Origin: a bacterium
Lineage (GTDB): Bacteria; ARS69
NCBI GenBank assembly: GCA_025774805.1
Contig: JALGZR010000044.1
Span: 1 to 28,843 of the forward strand
Direction of reading: 5' to 3'
DNA length: 28,843 nt
The position numbers were made by a program, and so were the translations under genes. Below are positions 10,403 to 28,739 of this stretch, piece by piece; positions within the stretch are counted from its first letter, which is position 1; every line of letters starts with the position of its first letter. Under the pieces are notes generated by a model that made no database searches, was not told where the DNA came from, and saw only the letters and a list, made by a program, of their open reading frames with translations.

Positions 10403-10762
10403 TTGAAGATCAAGCGTCATGATGACGACGACGTCGTGATTCTCGAGGTTTCGGGCAAGGTGATGGGCGGCCCGGACTCCGAGAAGTTCAAGAGCGTGAT
10501 CCTGGGGCTGATCGACGAGGGGGCGAAGAAGCTCCTGATCGACCTGAGCAGCGTTCCCTGGATGAACAGCTCGGGGGTGGGCATCCTGATCTCCGGGTAC
10601 ACGAGCATGAAGAACGCCGGCGCCCAGGTGAAGTTCCTGAACATCAACGAGCGGGTGAAGTCGATCCTGATGGTCACGAAGCTCCTCACGGTGTTCGAGA
10701 GTTACTACAACCGTGGCGATGCGCTGGCCAGCTTCCGGGAGCCGGGGTCCGCACGGGGATAG
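10403..10762 (+). CDS. STAS-domain anti-sigma factor antagonist-like protein
   Basis: 119 residues. TTG start at 10403 with AAGGGAG seven bases upstream. A single STAS domain of the SpoIIAA/RsbV type: N-terminal strands (VVILEVSGKVMGGPDSEKF), then LLIDLSSVPWMNSSGVGIL, where the NSSG at residues 55-58 corresponds to the (D)SSG phosphoacceptor loop of anti-anti-sigma factors. Asn replaces the usual Asp before the serines. Such proteins bind an HPK-type anti-sigma kinase and release a sigma factor, or act in other partner switches. No anti-sigma kinase or PP2C phosphatase gene is nearby, and it has its own promoter, so the partner must lie elsewhere. Confidence 0.88.
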   Translation: MKIKRHDDDDVVILEVSGKVMGGPDSEKFKSVILGLIDEGAKKLLIDLSSVPWMNSSGVGILISGYTSMKNAGAQVKFLNINERVKSILMVTKLLTVFESYYNRGDALASFREPGSARG

Positions 10763-10765
10763 CCC

Positions 10766-10835
10766 GCATCTCTCCCCGGCCTCTGCTGCGGCAGCGGCGC
10801 GCCGCGCCCGATGAGACCGGGTGAGAGATGCAGGC
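10766..10835 (+). repeat. Palindromic intergenic element, copy A
   Basis: Between the convergent stops of the STAS and PPIase genes. Outer arms GCATCTCTC (10766-10774) and GAGAGATGC (10823-10831) pair perfectly, followed by CCCGG/CCGGG with one bulged T; the middle includes GCGGCGCGCCGC, itself palindromic. It probably works as a bidirectional terminator. It is clearly related to the sequence at 16894-16954 in reverse orientation: GCTGCGGCAGCGGC is identical in both and the GGGTGAGAnATGCnGGC end differs at only two bases, so this is a dispersed element and not only a local hairpin. Confidence 0.75.
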
Positions 10836-11680
10836 TAGTCCCCCTCGGGTGGGGCGGATTCGGTCCCGCCGCTCTCCACGATCCGGGACGGGGCCACGAC
10901 CGGGGCCCCCTCCCGACGCAGCGTCACTCTCTCGATGCGAACCGGAACGCGGGGGCTCCGATTGCGAAGCGTCGTGACCTGCGAGATGCGGTCGACGGCG
11001 TCCATCCCTTCCACGACCCGACCGATCGCCGTCGCCCTCTCGTCCAGGGCCGGGAGATCGGCCAACGTGACGCACCACTGGCTGCCGGCGGTTCCCTCCC
11101 GGTCCTCTCTCCAGGACATCGACACCGTGCCGCGAATGTGGGTCGTCGGGGTCTTCTCGGCGGGAAGCCGGTAGAATGGGCCGCCCTGGCCGTCATTCCA
11201 GGGGTCGTCGTCGCGGCCGGACGGGTCCCCGGTCTGGATGACGTACCCGGGGATGGCGCGGTGGAACGCGAGGCCGTCGTAGAAGCCCTCGTGGGCGAGA
11301 GTGAGAAAGTGCGCCACGTGATTCGGGGCTTCCGCGCGATAGAATCGAATCGTGAACTCGCCGAAGTCCGGGACGACGACCGTGGCTTCGAGGGGAGGGA
11401 TGTCCTCGGGGCGCGGGAAGGGGGGGACCTCCTCGGGTGCCGTCTCCGGGAGAGGAGGAGGGTCGGCCTCGGCGGGATCAGCCGGTTCGGCCCGGACCGA
11501 GTCCTCCGGCTCGACCCGGACGGAATCTCCCGGCCGAGGCTCGGGCGGCGCCGGCTCGGTCGAAACGGGCCCCGCGGCGAAGGCCGCCGCGAAGAACGGG
11601 GCTGCCGCAAGGAAGAGGATGGCGGCCCGCCACTCCGGGGGCGAGGGAAGGTTGATGGCGGGGAGCGGTCCGAGACGCAC
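10835..11680 (-). CDS. Secreted cyclophilin-type peptidyl-prolyl cis-trans isomerase
   Basis: 281 residues. GTG start at 11680-11678 is set by a near-perfect GGGAGGAG six bases upstream; the open frame continues further upstream only as the antisense of the TPR gene. Residues about 16-37 are a hydrophobic signal or anchor (WRAAILFLAAAPFFAAAFAA), then a Pro/Glu-rich linker (40-97, with DSVRVEPEDSVRAEP repeats), then a cyclophilin domain (100-262): FHRAIPGYVIQTGDP, RGTVSMSW, GSQWCVTLADLPALDERATA and GRVVEGMDAVDRIS. In the FHR motif F and R are intact; the usual SQFFI appears as SQWCV. Likely a periplasmic or surface-tethered foldase. It is convergent with the STAS gene and divergent from the TPR gene (93-bp gap). 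Confidence 0.88.
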   Translation of the reverse strand: MRLGPLPAINLPSPPEWRAAILFLAAAPFFAAAFAAGPVSTEPAPPEPRPGDSVRVEPEDSVRAEPADPAEADPPPLPETAPEEVPPFPRPEDIPPLEATVVVPDFGEFTIRFYRAEAPNHVAHFLTLAHEGFYDGLAFHRAIPGYVIQTGDPSGRDDDPWNDGQGGPFYRLPAEKTPTTHIRGTVSMSWREDREGTAGSQWCVTLADLPALDERATAIGRVVEGMDAVDRISQVTTLRNRSPRVPVRIERVTLRREGAPVVAPSRIVESGGTESAPPEGD

Positions 11681-11773
11681 TACGATCTCCTCCCGACCGA
11701 GGGCCTCGTACCCGGGAGGCCGATCGGCCGCCCAGCGTAACACCGGCCGGGATCCCGTCAAGGGGAGGCGCCT

Positions 11774-12412
11774 GTGACCACCGACCCCCGCCGCAACGTC
11801 GACCCCCGGATCGCTCTGGGGATCGGGATCCTCCTTCTCCTGGCGGGGGGGCTGCTCCTCCGATTGCTGGTCCGCCCCGGCCCGGAGGAGGGGCTGGCCC
11901 TCAACCGCGCGTGGTCCCGCCTCACGCGGGGGGAGAAGGAGGCCGCCTATCGGAACCTCCAGCGCCGTCTCGCGAGGGATCCCGACGACCTGCAGTTCTG
12001 GCTGGAGGCGGGAGATCTGCTCCTCCATCTGGACCGGCCCCTCGAGGCCGCCGTCCACTTCCGCAAGGCGGCCGAGCTCGACACCGCTTCCTTTCATTTG
12101 CACTACTTGCTCGCGCGGGCCTACGACGAGGCCGGTCATCCGGAGCAGGCCGAGCTCGCCGTTCGGGAGCTCCTCTCGCGCACGGGGGATCACGCCGACG
12201 GGCTCTACCTGGCGGCGGCCCTCGCGGCCGCCCGCGGAGAGGTCGAGGTGTCGGTGAGCCATCTGGCCCTCGCACTCTCCCACGGAACCGGCGATCCGGA
12301 GCGGTACCGGAGGGATCCCCACTTCGATCCGATCCGCAACGACCCCCGGTTCGTCCGGGCGGTTCACGCGCTCTTTCTTCCGAACACGTTCGTCGAGGAG
12401 GAGAGCTCGTGA
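11774..12412 (+). CDS. Small membrane-anchored TPR protein
   Basis: 212 residues from GTG 11774, preceded by AGGGGAGG. One N-terminal membrane anchor (ALGIGILLLLAGGLLLRLLV, residues 14-33) followed by TPRs (AAYRNLQRRLARDPDDLQFW, LEAAVHFRKAAELDTASFHL, HYLLARAYDEAGHPEQAELA), so the repeats should face the periplasm or the cytoplasm beside the inner membrane. The C-terminal HFDPIRNDPRFVRAVHALF pattern is common at the end of TPR proteins. Its stop codon overlaps the GTG of the glycosyltransferase (GTGA), implying that the pair works together. Function not recognised. Confidence 0.8.
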   Translation: MTTDPRRNVDPRIALGIGILLLLAGGLLLRLLVRPGPEEGLALNRAWSRLTRGEKEAAYRNLQRRLARDPDDLQFWLEAGDLLLHLDRPLEAAVHFRKAAELDTASFHLHYLLARAYDEAGHPEQAELAVRELLSRTGDHADGLYLAAALAAARGEVEVSVSHLALALSHGTGDPERYRRDPHFDPIRNDPRFVRAVHALFLPNTFVEEESS

Positions 12413-13611
12413 GCCGCGGAAACGTTCTCATGGTCGTCCACAGCTACTGCCCGGCCGATCCCCGCGTTCGGCGGGAGGCGGAGGCTCTGGCCGAGCGCGG
12501 ACACGGGGTCGACGTCCTCTGCCTCCGGGATGAGGGGCAGCCGCTTCGGGAGACCGTTCGGGGCGTGGACTACCTCCGCATTCCACTGCGGCGCAAGCGG
12601 GGGGGCGTTCTTCGTTACGGCTTCGAGTACCTCGGGCTGCTGCTGCTCGGAATGACCGCGACGGTGTTCCTGCACGGGGTCCGCCGCTACCGACTCGTGC
12701 AGGCGCACAACATGCCCGACTTCCTCGTGTTCTGCGGAGTCGTTCCCTGGCTCACCGGAGTTCCCGTTCTACTCGATCTCCACGACCCGGTACCCGAGCT
12801 CTACATGTCGAAGTTCCGCCTGGGAGAGGGCGCGCCTCTCATCCGGGCCCTCCGGATCGTCGAGGGGGCGGCGATCCGCTTCGCGGACCGGGTGCTCGTC
12901 GCGACCGGGGCGTTCCGGAACCGGCTTCTCGAGCGGGGTCGGCCCGCGGAGAAGATCCGCGTGCTCCTGAACTCCCCCGATCCGCGGCTCTTCCATCCCC
13001 GGGCGACGGAGGCGTCGGACGGAGACGTGCCGATCGTTCTCTTCCACGGAACGGTGACGCACCGGAGCGGAGTCGATCACGCGATCCGCGCCGCGGAACG
13101 GGTTCGCGCCGGGGGGCGTGAGCTGCGGCTCTGGATTCTGGGCGACGGCGACTATCTGCCCGAGATCCGTCGGCTCGCGACGGAGAGCGACCGGGCGAGC
13201 TGGGTCGAGGTGCGCGGCTTCGTTCCCCTCGAAGAGATTCCCGCGGTCGTCCTTCGAGCCGACGTCGGCGTGATTCCGAACCGCCCCGGCGACTTCAACG
13301 ATCTCGCCCTCCCGACGCGCCTGTTCGAGTACCTCTCGATGGAACGTCCGGTGATCGTGTCTCGATCACCCGCCCTCCTGATGATGTTCGCCGAGGAAGA
13401 TCTCCTCTTCTTCGAAGCGGGCGACGAGGTGGATCTGGCCCGGGTCCTCGAGCGGGCGCTGACGGATCGCGGGCTCCGGGAGAGGTGTGTGCGCGGTGGA
13501 GGGGCGGTGGCACGCAAACACGGTTGGACCGGAGAGCGGCAGGTCTACCTGGACGTCGTGGGGTCGGTCGTGATGGCACCCGAGGAGGCCGGCGCGGCGA
13601 GGAAGCGGTAG
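12409..13611 (+). CDS. GT4-type (GT-B fold) glycosyltransferase
   Basis: 400 residues from GTG 12409, with GAGGAGGAG directly upstream inside the TPR gene. N-terminal Rossmann half: NVLMVVHSYCPADPRVRREA (the DPRVRREA turn is typical of GT4 enzymes), a hydrophobic segment (YLGLLLLGMTATVFLHGV, about residues 75-95) probably for membrane association, and VQAHNMPDFLVFCGVV, the HAHD-like motif. C-terminal half: IVLFHGTVTHRSGVDHAI, LRLWILGDGDYLPEIRRL, then LPTRLFEYLSMERPVIVS, the nucleotide-sugar binding/E(x7)E-like region. Presumably transfers a hexose from a nucleotide sugar onto a lipid or polysaccharide. The convergent gene overlaps its last 67 bases. Confidence 0.87.
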   Translation: MSRGNVLMVVHSYCPADPRVRREAEALAERGHGVDVLCLRDEGQPLRETVRGVDYLRIPLRRKRGGVLRYGFEYLGLLLLGMTATVFLHGVRRYRLVQAHNMPDFLVFCGVVPWLTGVPVLLDLHDPVPELYMSKFRLGEGAPLIRALRIVEGAAIRFADRVLVATGAFRNRLLERGRPAEKIRVLLNSPDPRLFHPRATEASDGDVPIVLFHGTVTHRSGVDHAIRAAERVRAGGRELRLWILGDGDYLPEIRRLATESDRASWVEVRGFVPLEEIPAVVLRADVGVIPNRPGDFNDLALPTRLFEYLSMERPVIVSRSPALLMMFAEEDLLFFEAGDEVDLARVLERALTDRGLRERCVRGGGAVARKHGWTGERQVYLDVVGSVVMAPEEAGAARKR

Positions 13612-14732
13612 CGGGGGGAACGTGCGCCGGAGCCGGTCCGCTCCAGGTACTCGACGAGCACCCGCCCGTCGCAGGAGCGCGGCACCGCGAGCCCCAGCAC
13701 GTGGAGCGCCGTCGGGGTCACGTCCAGCAGCCCGACCGGGCTTCGCTCGGCTCCGAGATGCACTCCCCTCCCGGTCAGGGCGATTCGGTCCTCATTGCCC
13801 GCTCCCAGGGTGACGTCGATCCAGACCCCTCGCCTTCGCAACTCGCCCGCCGTCGCCGCATCCACCGGCTCCGGGCCCTCCAGGAGACGCAGGTGAAGAG
13901 GCGGATCGTCCGGCGCTGGAGGTCCCCGAAGCACGGGGATCCCGGTCGCCGCCACGATGTCGGCGAGGGTCCCCGCCGGGCGGAGGGAGGAGGGAGGATC
14001 CTCGAGGGGCGCGGGCCAGGGAGCCAGGAGGACCCGAACCAGCCGGCGATCCGGGATCCAGGCGACGCCTCCTCCCCCGGGGAGGAGCCGGGGCCATTCC
14101 CGGCCCATGCGCGTGCGCGACGGGACCCGTCCCGTCCAGAGAGCGGCACGGCGGCCGGGGAGCTCGGACGCGAGGCGACGCAGGGGAAGGTGGAGCGCCG
14201 GAGTATCGGGGTAGGCCGGTCGGGCGTGGACCGAAACCGTCACCGGCCGCGCCCCCGGAAGCGGAATGCCGGGGAGAAGGGGATCGCCGGCGCGGAGCTT
14301 CGGGGGGAGAAGAAACGACCCCTTCGCGAGCAGAGCGGCGGCCACCAACGCGACCGCGATCGGCAACGCTCCGTCGAGCCGAGGGAGGTCGGGGGCCAAG
14401 CGACGTCGGAGGAATCGCAGGGCGAGAAGCGGAACGGCGAGCGGAAGAGCCGCACCCGGCGGGAGCAGAAGGTGGGCGGGGAGGAGCGCGCCGAAGAACA
14501 CGGCTCCGTCGTCGGCCCGAAGCCGGAGGGTCGTGAACGCCCTTCCCGCGAGAACGCCGACCAGCCCCCCCAGCGCCGCCCCGGTACATCCCCACAGGAG
14601 GATGAGAAACGTCGCGGATTGCGGGTTGAGGGTTCGCCGGTTTCCGGCGAGCATCTCGACGGCGGCGGCGACCGCAACGAGTCCACCCGGGGTCGCCGCG
14701 CGGCGAAAGGAATCGATCCATCGTGGGTGCAC
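13545..14732 (-). CDS. Membrane protein with degenerate alkaline-phosphatase-superfamily C-terminus
   Basis: About 395 residues from GTG 14732-14730 (upstream GGAAGAGGGCGG); the frame is open to 14783, but there the start has no Shine-Dalgarno and overlaps pfkB more. The N-terminal 150 residues are hydrophobic (ATFLILLWGCTGAALGGLVG, FFGALLPAHLLLPPGAALPL, LPIAVALVAAALLAKGSFLL). The C-terminus ends with SPVGLLDVTPTALHVLGLAV and CDGRVLVEYL, the typical closing segment of AP-superfamily phosphodiesterases and sulfatases. The N-terminal metal-binding Asp and nucleophile motifs of that family are not visible, and the middle has no HxxH-type zinc ligands I can identify, so catalysis is doubtful. It may be a non-enzymatic descendant, or a truncated one. 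The start position is uncertain. Confidence 0.65.
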   Translation of the reverse strand: MHPRWIDSFRRAATPGGLVAVAAAVEMLAGNRRTLNPQSATFLILLWGCTGAALGGLVGVLAGRAFTTLRLRADDGAVFFGALLPAHLLLPPGAALPLAVPLLALRFLRRRLAPDLPRLDGALPIAVALVAAALLAKGSFLLPPKLRAGDPLLPGIPLPGARPVTVSVHARPAYPDTPALHLPLRRLASELPGRRAALWTGRVPSRTRMGREWPRLLPGGGGVAWIPDRRLVRVLLAPWPAPLEDPPSSLRPAGTLADIVAATGIPVLRGPPAPDDPPLHLRLLEGPEPVDAATAGELRRRGVWIDVTLGAGNEDRIALTGRGVHLGAERSPVGLLDVTPTALHVLGLAVPRSCDGRVLVEYLERTGSGARSPRYRFLAAPASSGAITTDPTTSR

Positions 14733-15667
14733 GCTCTGCCGCCCTCTTCCCGTCGGTGCCGCCGGGGGTTCGCCCGCGCGCACTCTGCGTGGGGCTGGTC
14801 GCGTTCGACTTCCTGCTGGAGACGCCCTTTCCGATCCCCCGGGACGTGAAGGTCAGGGTCGAGGGGTTCGTCCGTCAAGGGGGAGGGCCGGCCGCGAACG
14901 CCGCGGTGGCACTGGCCCGGCTCGGAGTCGAGAGCCGATTCTGCGGGGCCACGGGGGACGACGGCGTCGGGAAGGACCAGGTGCTCGGGCTGGAGCTCGA
15001 GGGCGTGGACGTCTCCGGGGTCCGGACCGTGCCGGGAGCCCCGTCCCTCGTGTCCTTCATCCTGGTGGACTCGGACGACGGGAGCCGCACGATCTTCAGC
15101 TCGCTCGAGAACCGGCCCCGACTGCCGGCGGACTCCGTCCGCTTCCCGAGTCCGGCGCCGCACCTCCTTCTCGTGGATGGTTGGGAGGCCGACGCCCAGA
15201 GAGACGCCGCGCGATGGGCGCGGGAGAACGGCGTCCCCGTTCTGCTCGACGCGGGAAGCTGCCGGGAGGAAATCCTCGATCTGCTTCCCCGGTGCGGAAT
15301 CGTGATTGCGTCCGGGGATTTCGCCGACGGATTCTCCGGTCCCGGACGGGTCGAGGAGACCCTGGAGTCCCTTCTGCGGAGAGGACCGGGGCTCGCCGCG
15401 ATCACCCGGGGTCGTGAGGGGGCGGTGGGTGCCGCCCGCGACTCGGACCGGGTCTTCGAGATTCCGGCGTTTCCCGTGGACGCGGTCGACACCACGGGGG
15501 CGGGGGACGCCTTCCACGGGGGAGCCGCGTGGGGCCTTCTCACGGGAAGGTCCTGGAGGGAGAGCCTCCGGATCGGATCCGCGGTGGCGGCCCTGAAATG
15601 CCGGCGACCGGGCGCCCGGGCCGGGCTGCCCTCCGCGTCCCTCGTGCGTCGCTTCCTGGAAGCTTGA
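14723..15667 (+). CDS. PfkB-family carbohydrate/nucleoside kinase
   Basis: 314 residues from GTG 14723 (AAAGGA 11 bases upstream); GTG 14756 is an alternative that would avoid the divergent overlap. PfkB (ribokinase-like) fold: RALCVGLVAFDFLLETPF at the start, GGGPAANAAVALARLG (signature 1 region, residues about 53-68), FCGATGDDGVGKDQV, and the C-terminal signature DTTGAGDAFHGGAAWGLLTG (about 253-272), where the second D of GAGD is the catalytic base. ATP-dependent phosphorylation of a sugar; the substrate cannot be told from sequence alone. The divergent membrane gene overlaps or abuts its 5' end, and the PorV promoter -35 overlaps its stop codon. Confidence 0.88.
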   Translation: MGARSAALFPSVPPGVRPRALCVGLVAFDFLLETPFPIPRDVKVRVEGFVRQGGGPAANAAVALARLGVESRFCGATGDDGVGKDQVLGLELEGVDVSGVRTVPGAPSLVSFILVDSDDGSRTIFSSLENRPRLPADSVRFPSPAPHLLLVDGWEADAQRDAARWARENGVPVLLDAGSCREEILDLLPRCGIVIASGDFADGFSGPGRVEETLESLLRRGPGLAAITRGREGAVGAARDSDRVFEIPAFPVDAVDTTGAGDAFHGGAAWGLLTGRSWRESLRIGSAVAALKCRRPGARAGLPSASLVRRFLEA

Positions 15668-15692
15668 CAGAGCCGGTCTGGGTTTCTAAACT
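15664..15692 (+). promoter_or_regulatory. Promoter of the PorV-like gene
   Basis: TTGACA (15664-15669), 17-bp spacer, TAAACT (15687-15692). The -35 box contains the pfkB stop codon. The leader to the ATG is about 80 bases. Confidence 0.65.
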
Positions 15693-15700
15693 CAATTGAG
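15691..15700. promoter_or_regulatory. Perfect 10-bp palindrome over -10/+1 of the PorV promoter
   Basis: CTCAATTGAG overlaps the end of the -10 hexamer and covers the expected transcription start (about 15699). A regulator bound here would block initiation. Operator function is inference from position only. Confidence 0.3.
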
Positions 15701-15777
15701 GATTTCAGTTAGCCCCCCTTGCGGCGGGTCGATCCCTCGTTCGAGCCCGCTCGATCCACCCCGGGAGTAGCCTCCGG

Positions 15778-16869
15778 ATGCATCGATTCGTCCGCACCGT
15801 GGTCGGGCTGTGCTTGCTCGCCGGCACTCCGGCCTTCGCCTCGCCGTACGCCCAGGAATTCCTCGCCACCGGGATCGGAGCGCGACCGCTCGGACTGGGG
15901 GGGGCCTTCGTCGCCCTCGTGGACGACGCCACCGCCACCTACTGGAACCCGGCCGCGCTGTCACGCCCGTCCCGTCGCGAGCTCGTCTACATGCACTCCG
16001 AGCGCTTCGGGGATCTCGTGAACTACGACTCCGGGGCACTCGTGCTGCGTTCTCGGGAGAGGTCGAACGGATCGAGGAGCGCGTTCGGCATCGGATTCCT
16101 CATGACCTCCATCCCGGGGATCCAGTTCACCACGACCGATCCGGAGAAGCTCAAGGAGATCGAGAGCGGGAACGACGGCGAGTTCTTCACGAACGATCCG
16201 GACGGAAGCGAGGGGAACGGTGTCCTGGACGGACCCGGCGAACGGCTCGATCTCGATCTCCTGAACGAGTACGCGAAGGAGGTCACCGACCGTCAGCTCG
16301 GCGTCCTTCTCTCCTACGGCCGCTCGCGCGTGTTTCACCCCGACCTCTCGGTCGGAGTGAACGCGAAGTTCGTCCGGAAGTCGGTCGACGACTTCTCCGC
16401 GTGGGGGCTCGGAATCGACCTGGCGGCGCTCTACCAGCTGCGGCCGAACTGGGCGATCGGATTCAATCTCCAGGACGCCACGACGACCTTTCTCGAGTGG
16501 AAGAACACCGCATCGGAGCAACGGGAGTACATCACGCCGACCGTCAAGATCGGTACCGCGTACACCCTGGAGGTCGAGCGGGCGAGGGGGACGTTCTCGC
16601 TGGCGGCGGATTTCGACTTCCGGTTCGAGGACGAGGTCGGGTCCACCTTCTCCATCGGGGACATGACCGGCGACCTCCGGGCGGGCATCGAGTACTGGCA
16701 CCGCAACACCCTGGCGCTTCGTGTCGGGAGCGAGAGGTTGGGCGCCGACGACAACCCGTTCACGGCCGGAGCCGGACTGCGGATCCGCCGGTTCTCCTTC
16801 GACTATGCCTATCGAAATCACTCCGACCTCGATGACGTCCACCGGATCTCCGGGGGCGTGGCGTTCTGA
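15778..16869 (+). CDS. PorV/PorQ-type outer-membrane beta-barrel protein
   Basis: 363 residues, ATG 15778 with CGGGAG upstream. Signal peptide MHRFVRTVVGLCLLAGTPAFA. The mature start carries FLATGIGARPLGLGGAFVAL and DDATATYWNPAAL, the hallmark of the PorV/PorQ (UPF0164/FadL-like) family, in which early glycines and the YWNPA motif form the barrel hatch. Alternating amphipathic strands follow (LGVLLSYGRSRVFHPDLSVG, WAIGFNLQDATTTFLEW, GTFSLAADFDFRFEDEVG, FTAGAGLRIRRFSFDYAYR) and the chain ends with Phe, as outer-membrane barrels do. In Bacteroidetes PorV carries type IX cargo; here no other T9SS gene is present, so only the fold is claimed. Confidence 0.87.
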   Translation: MHRFVRTVVGLCLLAGTPAFASPYAQEFLATGIGARPLGLGGAFVALVDDATATYWNPAALSRPSRRELVYMHSERFGDLVNYDSGALVLRSRERSNGSRSAFGIGFLMTSIPGIQFTTTDPEKLKEIESGNDGEFFTNDPDGSEGNGVLDGPGERLDLDLLNEYAKEVTDRQLGVLLSYGRSRVFHPDLSVGVNAKFVRKSVDDFSAWGLGIDLAALYQLRPNWAIGFNLQDATTTFLEWKNTASEQREYITPTVKIGTAYTLEVERARGTFSLAADFDFRFEDEVGSTFSIGDMTGDLRAGIEYWHRNTLALRVGSERLGADDNPFTAGAGLRIRRFSFDYAYRNHSDLDDVHRISGGVAF

Positions 16870-16893
16870 CCGGAGCCCGATCCCGACGTCCTC

Positions 16894-16954
16894 GCCAGCA
16901 TTTCTCACCCGACGCGGCGAGCCGCTGCCGCAGCCGGGGCCGGTGAGACGTGAA
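16894..16954 (-). repeat. Palindromic intergenic element, copy B (reverse orientation)
   Basis: Lies 24 bases after the PorV stop. Read on the minus strand it aligns over its length with copy A (10766-10835): the GCTGCGGCAGCGGC core (16934-16921) is identical, the adjoining CGCCGCG is kept, and GGGTGAGAAATGCTGGC (16910-16894) differs at two positions; copy A has ten extra bases between these blocks. Its outer arms TCTCACC (16903-16909) and GGTGAGA (16942-16948) still pair. Likely also the terminator of the PorV gene. Confidence 0.7.
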
Positions 16955-16984
16955 GGCCAGTGGATTGCGGTGAGCCATCCGGGC

Positions 16985-16990
16985 TAGAAT
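16985..16990 (+). promoter_or_regulatory. Candidate -10 box of the mtaB operon
   Basis: TAGAAT in the context GGCTAGAATCT, the same context as the -10 of the HTH-cupin promoter at 7089. No good -35 at 16-18 bp (TTGCGG is only 14 bp upstream). It is the only promoter-like element in the 208-bp gap before mtaB. Confidence 0.35.
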
Positions 16991-17077: not shown

Positions 17078-18391
17078 TTGAAGAGAATCGCGTTCTGCAC
17101 GTTCGGGTGCCGCCTCAACCAGTACGATTCCGAGGCGATGCGCACCCTCCTCACCGGGCACGGGGAGTGGCGCGCGGTATCGGCGTCGGAGGAGGCCGAC
17201 GTCTATGTCGTGAACACCTGCAGCGTCACCGCGCGGGCCGACGCCCGGGCCCGCAACATGATCCGGCGGATCCACTCCGAGCGACCCGGTGCGCGCATCG
17301 TCGCGGCGGGTTGCTACGCCCAGCGGGCTCCGGAGGAGATCGCGCGGCTCGAGGGAATCTCCCTGATCCTGGGCACCGCGGACCGGGAGCGCGTCGTCGA
17401 GGAGCTCGACCGGACCGTTCCCGGTGAGGTCCGCACGTCGGTCTCCCCCATCTCGGCGGCGAAGGTCTTCCCCGAGATTTCCGTCCGGGAGATGACCGAT
17501 CGCACCCGCGCCTTCGTGAAGGTGCAGGAGGGGTGCAACGAGTCGTGCACCTTCTGCATCATCCCGCGGACGAGAGGAGCCTCCCGCAGCCGGCGTCCGG
17601 AGAACGTGTTGGCGCAGATCGGAGACTTGGTCGAGAGCGGATACACGGAGATCGTTCTCACCGGCGTCCACCTGGGAGACTACGGTCTCGATCTCGAGGA
17701 GGGGGAGCGTCTCCTGGTTTCCCTGATCGAGAGCGTCCTGGCGGTTCCGGGTCTCGATCGGTTTCGACTGAGCTCGATCGAGCCGGGCTCGATCAGCGAG
17801 GGTCTCGTGGATCTCCTGGCCTCCCACGACAAGTTCGCCCGGCACCTCCACATTCCCCTCCAGAGCGGATGCGACGATATCCTCGCGCGCATGCGGCGAT
17901 CCTACACCTTCGGCAGCTTCGCGGATCTCGTCACCCGGATCGCGGATCGGATTCCCGACTGCGGCATCGGAACCGACGTGATCTGCGGGTTTCCCGGAGA
18001 GACCGACGCGCACTTCCGGCGCACGTTCGACCGGATCGCCGAGCTTCCCATCACCTACCTCCACCCGTTCACCTACTCCGTGCGTCCCGGTTCGGAGGCC
18101 GAGCGCTACGGGGATCAGGTGCCGGGTGACCTGAAGAAGCGGAGGACGAGGGCGCTCAAGCGCCTCTCCCGGGACAAGAGTCGCGCGTTTCGGGAGCGAC
18201 ACGTGGGCCGGGTCCTGCCGATCGTCGTCGAGAGCGCCCGCCGGAACGGCGGACCCCGCCTCGGGGGGCTGACCGACAACTACCTCCGCGTCGACCTCGG
18301 ACCGGGAGAGACCGAGGACACGGTGGTCTGGGCCCTTCTGACCGGGGTGACCGACGACGGTCTCACCGGGGAGAGGACCGGTGCCCCGTGA
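17078..18391 (+). CDS. mtaB: tRNA (N6-threonylcarbamoyladenosine(37)-C2)-methylthiotransferase MtaB
   Basis: Radical-SAM methylthiotransferase that converts t6A37 to ms2t6A37 in ANN-decoding tRNAs. 437 residues from TTG 17078, which follows GAGGGA and places the conserved CTFGCRLNQYDSEAM at the usual N-terminal position; the frame is open to 16997, but that start would lie at the predicted transcription start. Cluster ligands: C11, C48 (VVNTCSV) and C79 (AAGCYAQ) for the auxiliary [4Fe-4S], and C153/C157/C160 (GCNESCTFC) for the radical-SAM cluster. The IIPRTRGASRSR motif and HLHIPLQSGCDDILARMRR fit MtaB rather than MiaB or RimO. The C-terminus is the TRAM-like part. First gene of the long operon; its TGA overlaps the GTG of miaB. 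Confidence 0.93.
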   Translation: MKRIAFCTFGCRLNQYDSEAMRTLLTGHGEWRAVSASEEADVYVVNTCSVTARADARARNMIRRIHSERPGARIVAAGCYAQRAPEEIARLEGISLILGTADRERVVEELDRTVPGEVRTSVSPISAAKVFPEISVREMTDRTRAFVKVQEGCNESCTFCIIPRTRGASRSRRPENVLAQIGDLVESGYTEIVLTGVHLGDYGLDLEEGERLLVSLIESVLAVPGLDRFRLSSIEPGSISEGLVDLLASHDKFARHLHIPLQSGCDDILARMRRSYTFGSFADLVTRIADRIPDCGIGTDVICGFPGETDAHFRRTFDRIAELPITYLHPFTYSVRPGSEAERYGDQVPGDLKKRRTRALKRLSRDKSRAFRERHVGRVLPIVVESARRNGGPRLGGLTDNYLRVDLGPGETEDTVVWALLTGVTDDGLTGERTGAP

Positions 18392-27962: not shown

Positions 27963-28038
27963 GCGGGCATAACTCAGTCGGTAGAGTGTCAGCTTCCCAA
28001 GCTGAAAGTCGCGGGTTCGAATCCCGTTGCCCGCTCCA
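27963..28038 (+). tRNA. tRNA-Gly(CCC); probable attachment site of an integrated element
   Basis: Cloverleaf: acceptor GCGGGCA/TGCCCGC, D stem ACTC/GAGT, anticodon stem TCAGC/GCTGA with loop TTCCCAA (anticodon CCC, codon GGG), T arm GCGGG-TTCGAAT-CCCGT, discriminator T, encoded CCA; 76 bases. The integrase remnant begins 20 bases downstream and reads toward it, the usual layout when a tRNA 3' end serves as attB. A matching second half (attR) is not in the window. Confidence 0.95.
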
Positions 28039-28058: not shown

Positions 28059-28739
28059 TCAGTTAGCAATCCGCCTCCCCCGCGTGTCGACCATGTGCCG
28101 ACGAGGTTGCTCTTCTAGGCGCCGAATCCACTCCCGCTCAACCTCCGGATCCAGATGCGTGTAACGGCTTGTCATCGTTCGGTCCGCGTGTCCTGCCCAC
28201 CTGCGTATCGCCGTCTCGGGGATCTCTCGATGCGCGAGTTCCGACACGAACGTGTGGCGCAGCGTGTGAAGCGGCCGGGTCTCGTCGAGATGGGCCCGAC
28301 GAAGGGCCGGTAGGACCCGGACCTTGAGCCACTTGTGAGAGAGTACCTGCTTCCCGTCTCGAAGAACTCGATCCGGACCCACGGGAGCCCGCCGACGATG
28401 ATCGCGCAGAGCCGCTTCGAGACTCGGAGTAAGGGGAACCGATCTCACCTTCCCTGATTTCGTTCCCTTCTCACTCCCTCTCGCGGTGAGGGCTCACCTT
28501 ACTATGATGAATCCCTGCTCGGGGTCCACGTCCTGCCACTTCAAGCCCAGCATCTCTCCGGCCCGAAGACCGGCATGTGCTCCGAGCAGGACAATCAGGA
28601 GCGCCTGGGAGTCAAGGACCCGTGCTGCCTCGATCAGCCGCGACAGCTCCTGAAAAGAGTGAGCCCGAAGCTCGGTGTGTCCCGGCGGCGAGATGGGGAT
28701 CTTTGGGAGTCGGTAGTCTCTCGGGAGGAGGAGGAATTG
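28059..28739 (-). pseudogene. Tyrosine recombinase (phage-type integrase), decayed
   Basis: Minus-strand catalytic domain of a tyrosine recombinase. From LLLPRDYRLPKIPISPPG it reads through SRLIEAARVLDSQALLIVLL, AGLRAGEMLGLKWQDVD (catalytic Arg at 28565-28563) and GFIIVR, then meets TGA at 28496-28494. After it, in the same frame, come ALTARGSEKGTKSGKVRSVP and, further on, the other catalytic motifs: HTLRH, GHADRTMTSRYTH (nucleophile Tyr) and the C-terminus. So all of R...HxxR...H...Y is present, interrupted by one nonsense codon, most simply CGA to TGA. Upstream of 28739 the frame meets another TGA and the N-terminal core-binding domain is not recognisable, so the 5' part is lost or replaced. 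A 129-residue C-terminal piece (from GTG 28448) could still be made. Base composition is less GC-rich than the neighbours. Confidence 0.85.

Follow-up and report, generated by a model that had tools for sequence, protein, structure and literature searches.

A dispersed CTAG-bounded hairpin element family with IS1380-type ends in an ARS69 bacterial genome

The window, by which we mean the whole stretch of 28,843 nt that was analysed, contains two short palindromic elements of opposite orientation, each lying next to the 3′ end of a gene (Table 1). Copy 1 sits in a convergent gene pair and overlaps both stop codons: the TAG at 10760-10762 in its left TIR terminates the STAS gene, and the CTA at 10835-10837 in its right TIR, read on the minus strand, is the TAG that ends the cyclophilin gene. 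Copy 2 begins 21 bp past the TGA of its upstream gene, in a gap between two genes of the same orientation; the product of that upstream gene reads like an outer-membrane beta-barrel protein. The initial annotation described the two as homologous elements in opposite orientation that differ by a 10-base indel, and both the sequence and an alignment to the family consensus bear this out: the common layout is TIR + GCTGCGGCAGCGGC + TIR, the lengths differ by 10 bp, and the consensus right end (CTCTGCTGCGGCAGCGGC in the 182-bp consensus) stands on the left of copy 1. The limits proposed at that time (10766-10835 and 16894-16954) were right as to place, and the true borders are slightly wider. A third, degenerate half-site directly after copy 2 was absent from that annotation. 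The terminal 4-mers are ATAG and CTAG in copy 1 and CTCG and CCAG in copy 2. The DNA fold of copy 2 has a z of -0.6 against shuffles (Table 1 gives that of copy 1), and its hairpin is decayed. At the far side of the window, a minus-strand frame resembling the C-terminal part of a tyrosine recombinase (28059-28448) adjoins a plus-strand tRNA (27963-28035), a layout like that found where an integrated element borders its host.

Table 1. Positions of the two elements, their ends and the adjoining genes in the window.
Feature	Position	Strand	Basis
STAS-domain protein gene, flanks copy 1; TAG stop from the flanking 4-mer	10403..10762	+	Pfam PF01740, E 2.4e-14
MITE copy 1, 80-bp internally deleted derivative	10759..10838	-	TIR pair and alignment to 182-bp consensus; DNA fold z -4.9 against shuffles
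Left TIR of copy 1 (ATAGCCCGCATCTCTCCCC)	10759..10777	+	Sequence, ORF list, gene calls
Right TIR of copy 1 (GGTGAGAGATGCAGGCTAG)	10820..10838	+	Sequence, ORF list, gene calls
Cyclophilin-type peptidyl-prolyl isomerase gene, convergent; TAG stop from the flanking CTAG of copy 1	10835..12367	-	Pfam PF00160, E 9.2e-37
Gene upstream of copy 2, 363 aa	15778..16869	+	ORF list; no Pfam family
MITE copy 2, 70-bp derivative, orientation opposite to copy 1	16891..16960	+	TIR pair and alignment to consensus
Degenerate solo right-end half-site (GGTGAGCCATCCGGGCTAG), directly after copy 2	16969..16987	+	End-motif scan of the window
Radical-SAM protein gene with UPF0004 domain (methylthiotransferase type), downstream of copy 2	17078..18391	+	Pfam PF00919, PF04055

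Throughout the 5.1-Mb genome, the sequence GGTGAGANATGCNGGC is matched 423 times (196 + 227) with at most one mismatch, compared with 2 matches for the reversed control, and the half-site CTAGCCNGCATNTCTCACC is matched 424 times (223 + 201) with at most two mismatches, compared with 0 for its control. In each of four further genomes from this family, CTAGCCNGCATNTCTCACC is matched 0-3 times; therefore, the expansion is specific to the lineage of the window organism. The search of the genome and its relatives that the initial annotation had proposed was thus carried out by pattern counts and by a profile search, and its prediction of a dispersed family with further copies was correct.

The anatomy of the elements, and the CTAG and gene-context counts given below, were determined in approximately 1.67 Mb of this genome, a sample in which contigs with matches were favoured. 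The full-length element is 182 bp, is bounded by CTAG, has 15-bp TIRs and forms a single end-to-end hairpin; its consensus starts with CTAGCCTGCATTTCTCACCAGGCTCGTCGCGAGGC and ends with CGCGGCTTTGCCGCTGCCGCAGCAGAGGCTGGTGAGATATGCAGGCTAG. The sample contains 39 copies of 181-183 bp with a mean pairwise identity of 0.89, and the profile search recovered 182 full or partial copies. In one full-length copy, the DNA folds into a single hairpin of -72.5 kcal/mol (z -8.9) and the RNA fold reaches -137.9 (z -10.8). The elements are therefore short and non-coding, carry TIRs and occur in many dispersed copies, which are the marks of a MITE, and 182 bp leaves no space for a transposase gene. No Rfam match was obtained for this full-length class (one copy from the window's genome) or for 12 loci of other genomes. 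Shorter copies have kept both ends and lost the middle, and several have common breakpoints: 30+25 in eight copies of 55 bp, 29+41 in six copies of 70 bp (copy 2 of the window and five others, beside one further 70-bp copy with other breakpoints), 19+52 in four copies of 71 bp, and 28+50 in five copies of 78 bp. These common breakpoints indicate that the short forms have multiplied themselves or that the same deletion recurs. Copy 1 of the window fits breakpoints of 39+41 poorly and is old; both window copies are decayed, internally deleted members of the dispersed family. On contig C124 (14635-17184, locus L083), two separate elements lie 2.55 kb apart around an M28-peptidase-like gene, and this unit could in principle act as a composite; as a candidate autonomous element the 2.55-kb TIR pair was rejected, since what it encloses are ordinary genes, including the M28-peptidase-like one.

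The borders of the family are sharp. In the window's genome, 92 paired elements have a conserved CTAG on both sides and random bases beyond, and elements placed end to end in tandem have a single CTAG in common, which indicates that the CTAG belongs to the target and not to the element. In the Bryobacterales genome RHO3_bin_12 (G011), the flanks follow YTAR (CTAG, TTAG, CTAA and TTAA). One empty site was found by comparing two related Bryobacterales genomes: the occupied locus L288 reads CAACT-CTAG-element-CTAG-GCTCTTG and the empty locus L310 reads CAACT-CCAG-GCTCTTG, and the left flank can be aligned over 1 kb with 91% identity. The insertion therefore adds the element and four bases. Because CTAG is palindromic, the empty site alone fits either a 4-bp duplication or a duplication of TA within CTAG. 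An insertion sequence with CTAA at both sides, described below, favours the 4-bp duplication; against it, otherwise clean copies in G011 often have unequal flanks (TTAG/CTAG), and the flanks alone leave both possibilities standing. The same palindromy, together with the near fixation of CTAG on both sides, makes a direct-repeat test by flanks uninformative in the window's genome; in the stretches scanned from other genomes, the flanks were biased by the CTAG that formed part of the search pattern.

A source of transposase for these ends was sought by screening 20 genomes that carry them for PF13701, the IS1380 transposase domain. Intact IS1380 copies were found among these genomes, and 8 of the 20 contained no PF13701 match. 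RHO3_bin_12 carries two copies (L263 and L274) whose identity over 1.73 kb is 97% and whose similarity stops exactly at the TIRs CTA(A/G)CC(C/T)GCATTTCTCACCAG and CTAGCCCGGATATCTCACCAG; the 4-bp flanking repeats are CTAG/CTAG in one copy and CTAA/CTAA in the other. A further copy, in Eisenbacteria, encodes a protein 61% identical to the Bryobacterales one and has the same right end approximately 235 bp past the gene (approximately 240 bp in L274), and its left side looks as if broken by an IS3-type element. Both proteins match the NCBIfam equivalog NF033539 (E 1e-115). IS1380 elements with the ends of the window family thus exist in another phylum, with a transposase of 476-492 aa in 1.7 kb and 4-bp YTAR flanks that resemble the TTAA of piggyBac. 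IS1380 is related to piggyBac. The use of IS1380 as an outgroup in piggyBac papers is consistent with this relationship (PMC10813416), and for IS1247 of Paracoccus, which belongs to the IS1380 family, the listing gives 5-bp direct repeats (PMC3281130).

The window elements differ from IS1380 in being non-coding. The MITE interiors are unlike deletion products of the IS1380 copies found and have nothing in common with them beyond the TIR and a few bases. An autonomous IS1380 with these ends resides in the same genome as the elements in RHO3_bin_12 and not in the window's genome, where the sole IS1380 match is a 131-aa remnant without these ends and the Eisenbacteria transposase, used as a query, found no match. 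The putative partner is accordingly recognised through the ends that it carries in other hosts and not in this one. With no intact partner in the assembly, the local population seems to be old and no longer active; alternatively, its insertion sequence has been lost or was left unassembled. We consider the elements to be non-autonomous MITEs whose ends match IS1380-family insertion sequences (probability of roughly 0.87): they form a real, mobile family of foldback MITEs that targets CTAG, and IS1380 is very likely its partner. An IS1380-type DDE transposase would bind the TIRs in trans, cut the element and paste it into CTAG with duplication of these bases, in much the way that piggyBac uses TTAA. 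Shorter forms of 55-98 bp, such as those in the window, would arise by deletions inside the hairpin, and an insertion that duplicates CTAG would leave TAG stop codons intact.

The position of the elements relative to genes, as delineated by a simple codon-usage gene caller, agrees with such a target. CTAG is approximately 11-fold under-represented in the 1.67-Mb sample (436 sites compared with 4,920 expected from base composition), and 148 of these sites are element ends. Genes contain 154 of the other 288 sites, and 92 of the 288 coincide with a TAG stop codon; such overlap accounts for most of the sites outside genes. Inside genes we find only 2 of 89 elements, compared with the 154 of 288 other CTAGs (Fisher p 1e-21). 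The TAG stop of a neighbouring gene falls exactly in the flanking 4-mer of 37 of 92 elements, four elements, including copy 1 of the window, contain the stops of both neighbours in this way, and approximately 40% of the adjoining 3′ ends fall precisely on the flanking CTAG. Elements are more frequent than expected in convergent gaps (22 compared with 11-13 expected) and less frequent in divergent ones, with p 2e-4 if gaps are weighted by intergenic length and p 0.02 if they are simply counted. Because CTAG is rare, because outside genes it lies mostly on TAG stops, and because its duplication keeps the stop, many copies come to lie exactly at gene ends. Stop-adjacent copies are therefore expected from insertion into tolerated CTAG sites, and we claim no additional targeting of stops. 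At 11 of approximately 78 genes leading away from elements in the window's genome (loci L031-L050, L064-L083 and L087-L146), the called start is an ATG inside the TIR GGTGAGAAATGCAGGCTAG, with an overlap of 11 nt; this ATG is preceded by GGTGAG, which resembles a ribosome-binding site, and the caller may have over-extended these starts.

Other explanations must be weighed against a MITE origin. At first glance, the window by itself could be read as two unrelated GC-rich hairpins that arose by chance, because its end motif is barely above expectation there (6 matches with at most three mismatches, 3.7 expected). The hundreds of genome-wide matches over nearly empty controls and the alignable 182-bp copies refute this reading, to which we assign a negligible probability. 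Another view is that the host encodes these hairpins as bidirectional terminators or stabilisers of mRNA 3′ ends, which were spread by ordinary duplication and not by transposition. The strength of the hairpins, the preference for convergent over divergent gaps and the frequent coincidence with 3′ ends speak for this view; however, neither window copy has the stem-loop with a T-run of an intrinsic terminator, the sharp CTAG borders, the empty site and the identical ends on insertion sequences are evidence of mobility, and the elements are nearly absent from related genomes. We therefore regard a host-encoded function of this type as very unlikely. That the mobile copies might double as terminators, as the initial annotation suggested, is an unproven possibility: no terminator-like site with a T-run coincides with either window copy, despite the clustering of the family near 3′ ends of genes.

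The initial annotation spoke of a REP/MITE-like family, and the MITE half of this description has stood while the REP half has not. According to the latter, the elements would be REP/BIME units or TIRtrons moved through single-stranded DNA by a Y1 HUH transposase (RAYT, IS200/IS605-like), and the conserved foldback would be its substrate. The elements are indeed palindromic, intergenic and numerous, with a conserved hairpin; like REPs, they are short palindromes at gene ends that occur in hundreds of copies as solo and paired units, and Y1 genes exist in some of the genomes that carry the ends. Y1 elements, however, insert without target duplication, whereas the empty site displays one. The RAYT transposase that was to be looked for (Y1_Tnp, PF01797) is absent from the window's genome and from the two Bryobacterales genomes examined, G010 and RHO3_bin_12, despite the 236 exact ends in the latter, and 25 Y1 loci (73 kb) contained four loose end matches, none of which framed a Y1 gene. 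REP families are defined by a one-sided GTAG or CGTC tag on a palindrome of 20-40 bp, with RAYT partners for GTAG (PMC3733652), whereas the present elements of 55-182 bp have a symmetrical CTAG at both ends. Mobilization by a Y1 transposase thus appears highly improbable to us.

The MITE family has closer parallels among the long-hairpin elements of bacteria. ERIC and Correia/NEMIS are imperfect whole-element palindromes of approximately 100-200 bp that have TIRs, lie between genes in high copy number and include internally deleted forms, and the window family has these traits in common with them; it differs in targeting CTAG instead of TA, in its TIR and partner family, and in spanning many phyla with a conserved shape. 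The open full-text literature yielded no description of the end sequence or of IS1380-related MITEs. The family is known in kind, as a MITE, and new, as far as could be checked, in its IS1380 link, its CTAG target and the retention of its hairpin shape across phyla. A repeat that clutters and interrupts the assemblies of many metagenome bacteria can now be named and provided with a likely motor, and IS1380 becomes tied to a MITE family whose shape persists across phyla. The family also offers a testable bacterial parallel to piggyBac, with CTAG substituting for TTAA, in which insertions can leave a TAG stop in place.

When GTDB was scanned with one genome for each species, the ends turned up in at least 115 stretches; the groups concerned include Gammaproteobacteria, Deltaproteobacteria, Acidobacteria, Gemmatimonadetes, Planctomycetes, Verrucomicrobia and others. 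For the most part the ends form pairs that bound non-coding elements of 134-300 bp (modal lengths 184 and 248), and no end pair of IS length with a transposase was seen among these stretches. Of 149 genomes from the phylum of RHO3_bin_12, only 6 contain an exact end, and RHO3_bin_12 by itself accounts for 236 such ends. A mobile element that passes horizontally between hosts would be expected to show this patchiness with local bursts. To the shape of the element we can speak from 14 elements of 182-186 bp that were aligned over their length; they come from Delta- and Gammaproteobacteria, Gemmatimonadetes, Holophagae, Thermoanaerobaculales, an Actinomycetota MAG and the window's genome, with taxon names as in the records and MAG binning taken as given. 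Compensatory changes on both sides occur in 36 of the 59 consensus pairs, 92.1% of the alignment cells are paired (35-45% with slid partners), and the covariation score is 0.44 (0.18 in shuffles). The compensatory changes and the pairing indicate that the interior of this size class is conserved as a structure, whereas its sequence is not retained across phyla. This may reflect selection on the fold, or else mutual correction of the arms by template switching or gene conversion within the hairpin. The folded form, be it a cruciform or a single strand during transposition or an RNA hairpin, probably matters for the spread. Selection on the structure of a MITE, beyond its ends, thereby becomes testable. 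A bolder proposal, which we put forward tentatively and consider somewhat unlikely, is that a long-lived mobile hairpin of approximately 184 nt lives as an independent parasite of IS1380-type transposases and is not the deletion product of one insertion sequence; it would have passed from phylum to phylum with its shape selected as a transposition substrate or as RNA, and its stop-sparing CTAG target would make its insertions nearly silent.

Viral contigs contained only three matches, two of them from one sample whose contigs end inside an element. Many metagenome contigs likewise stop inside an element (L085, L086, L182, L216 and others), and the repeat appears to break assemblies. Elements of approximately 248 bp (L168, L204, L224, L251 and L184; 246-251 bp) from Gammaproteobacteria, Acidobacteria and Ca. 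Versatilivorator form a second common size class, with the same ends and a different interior.
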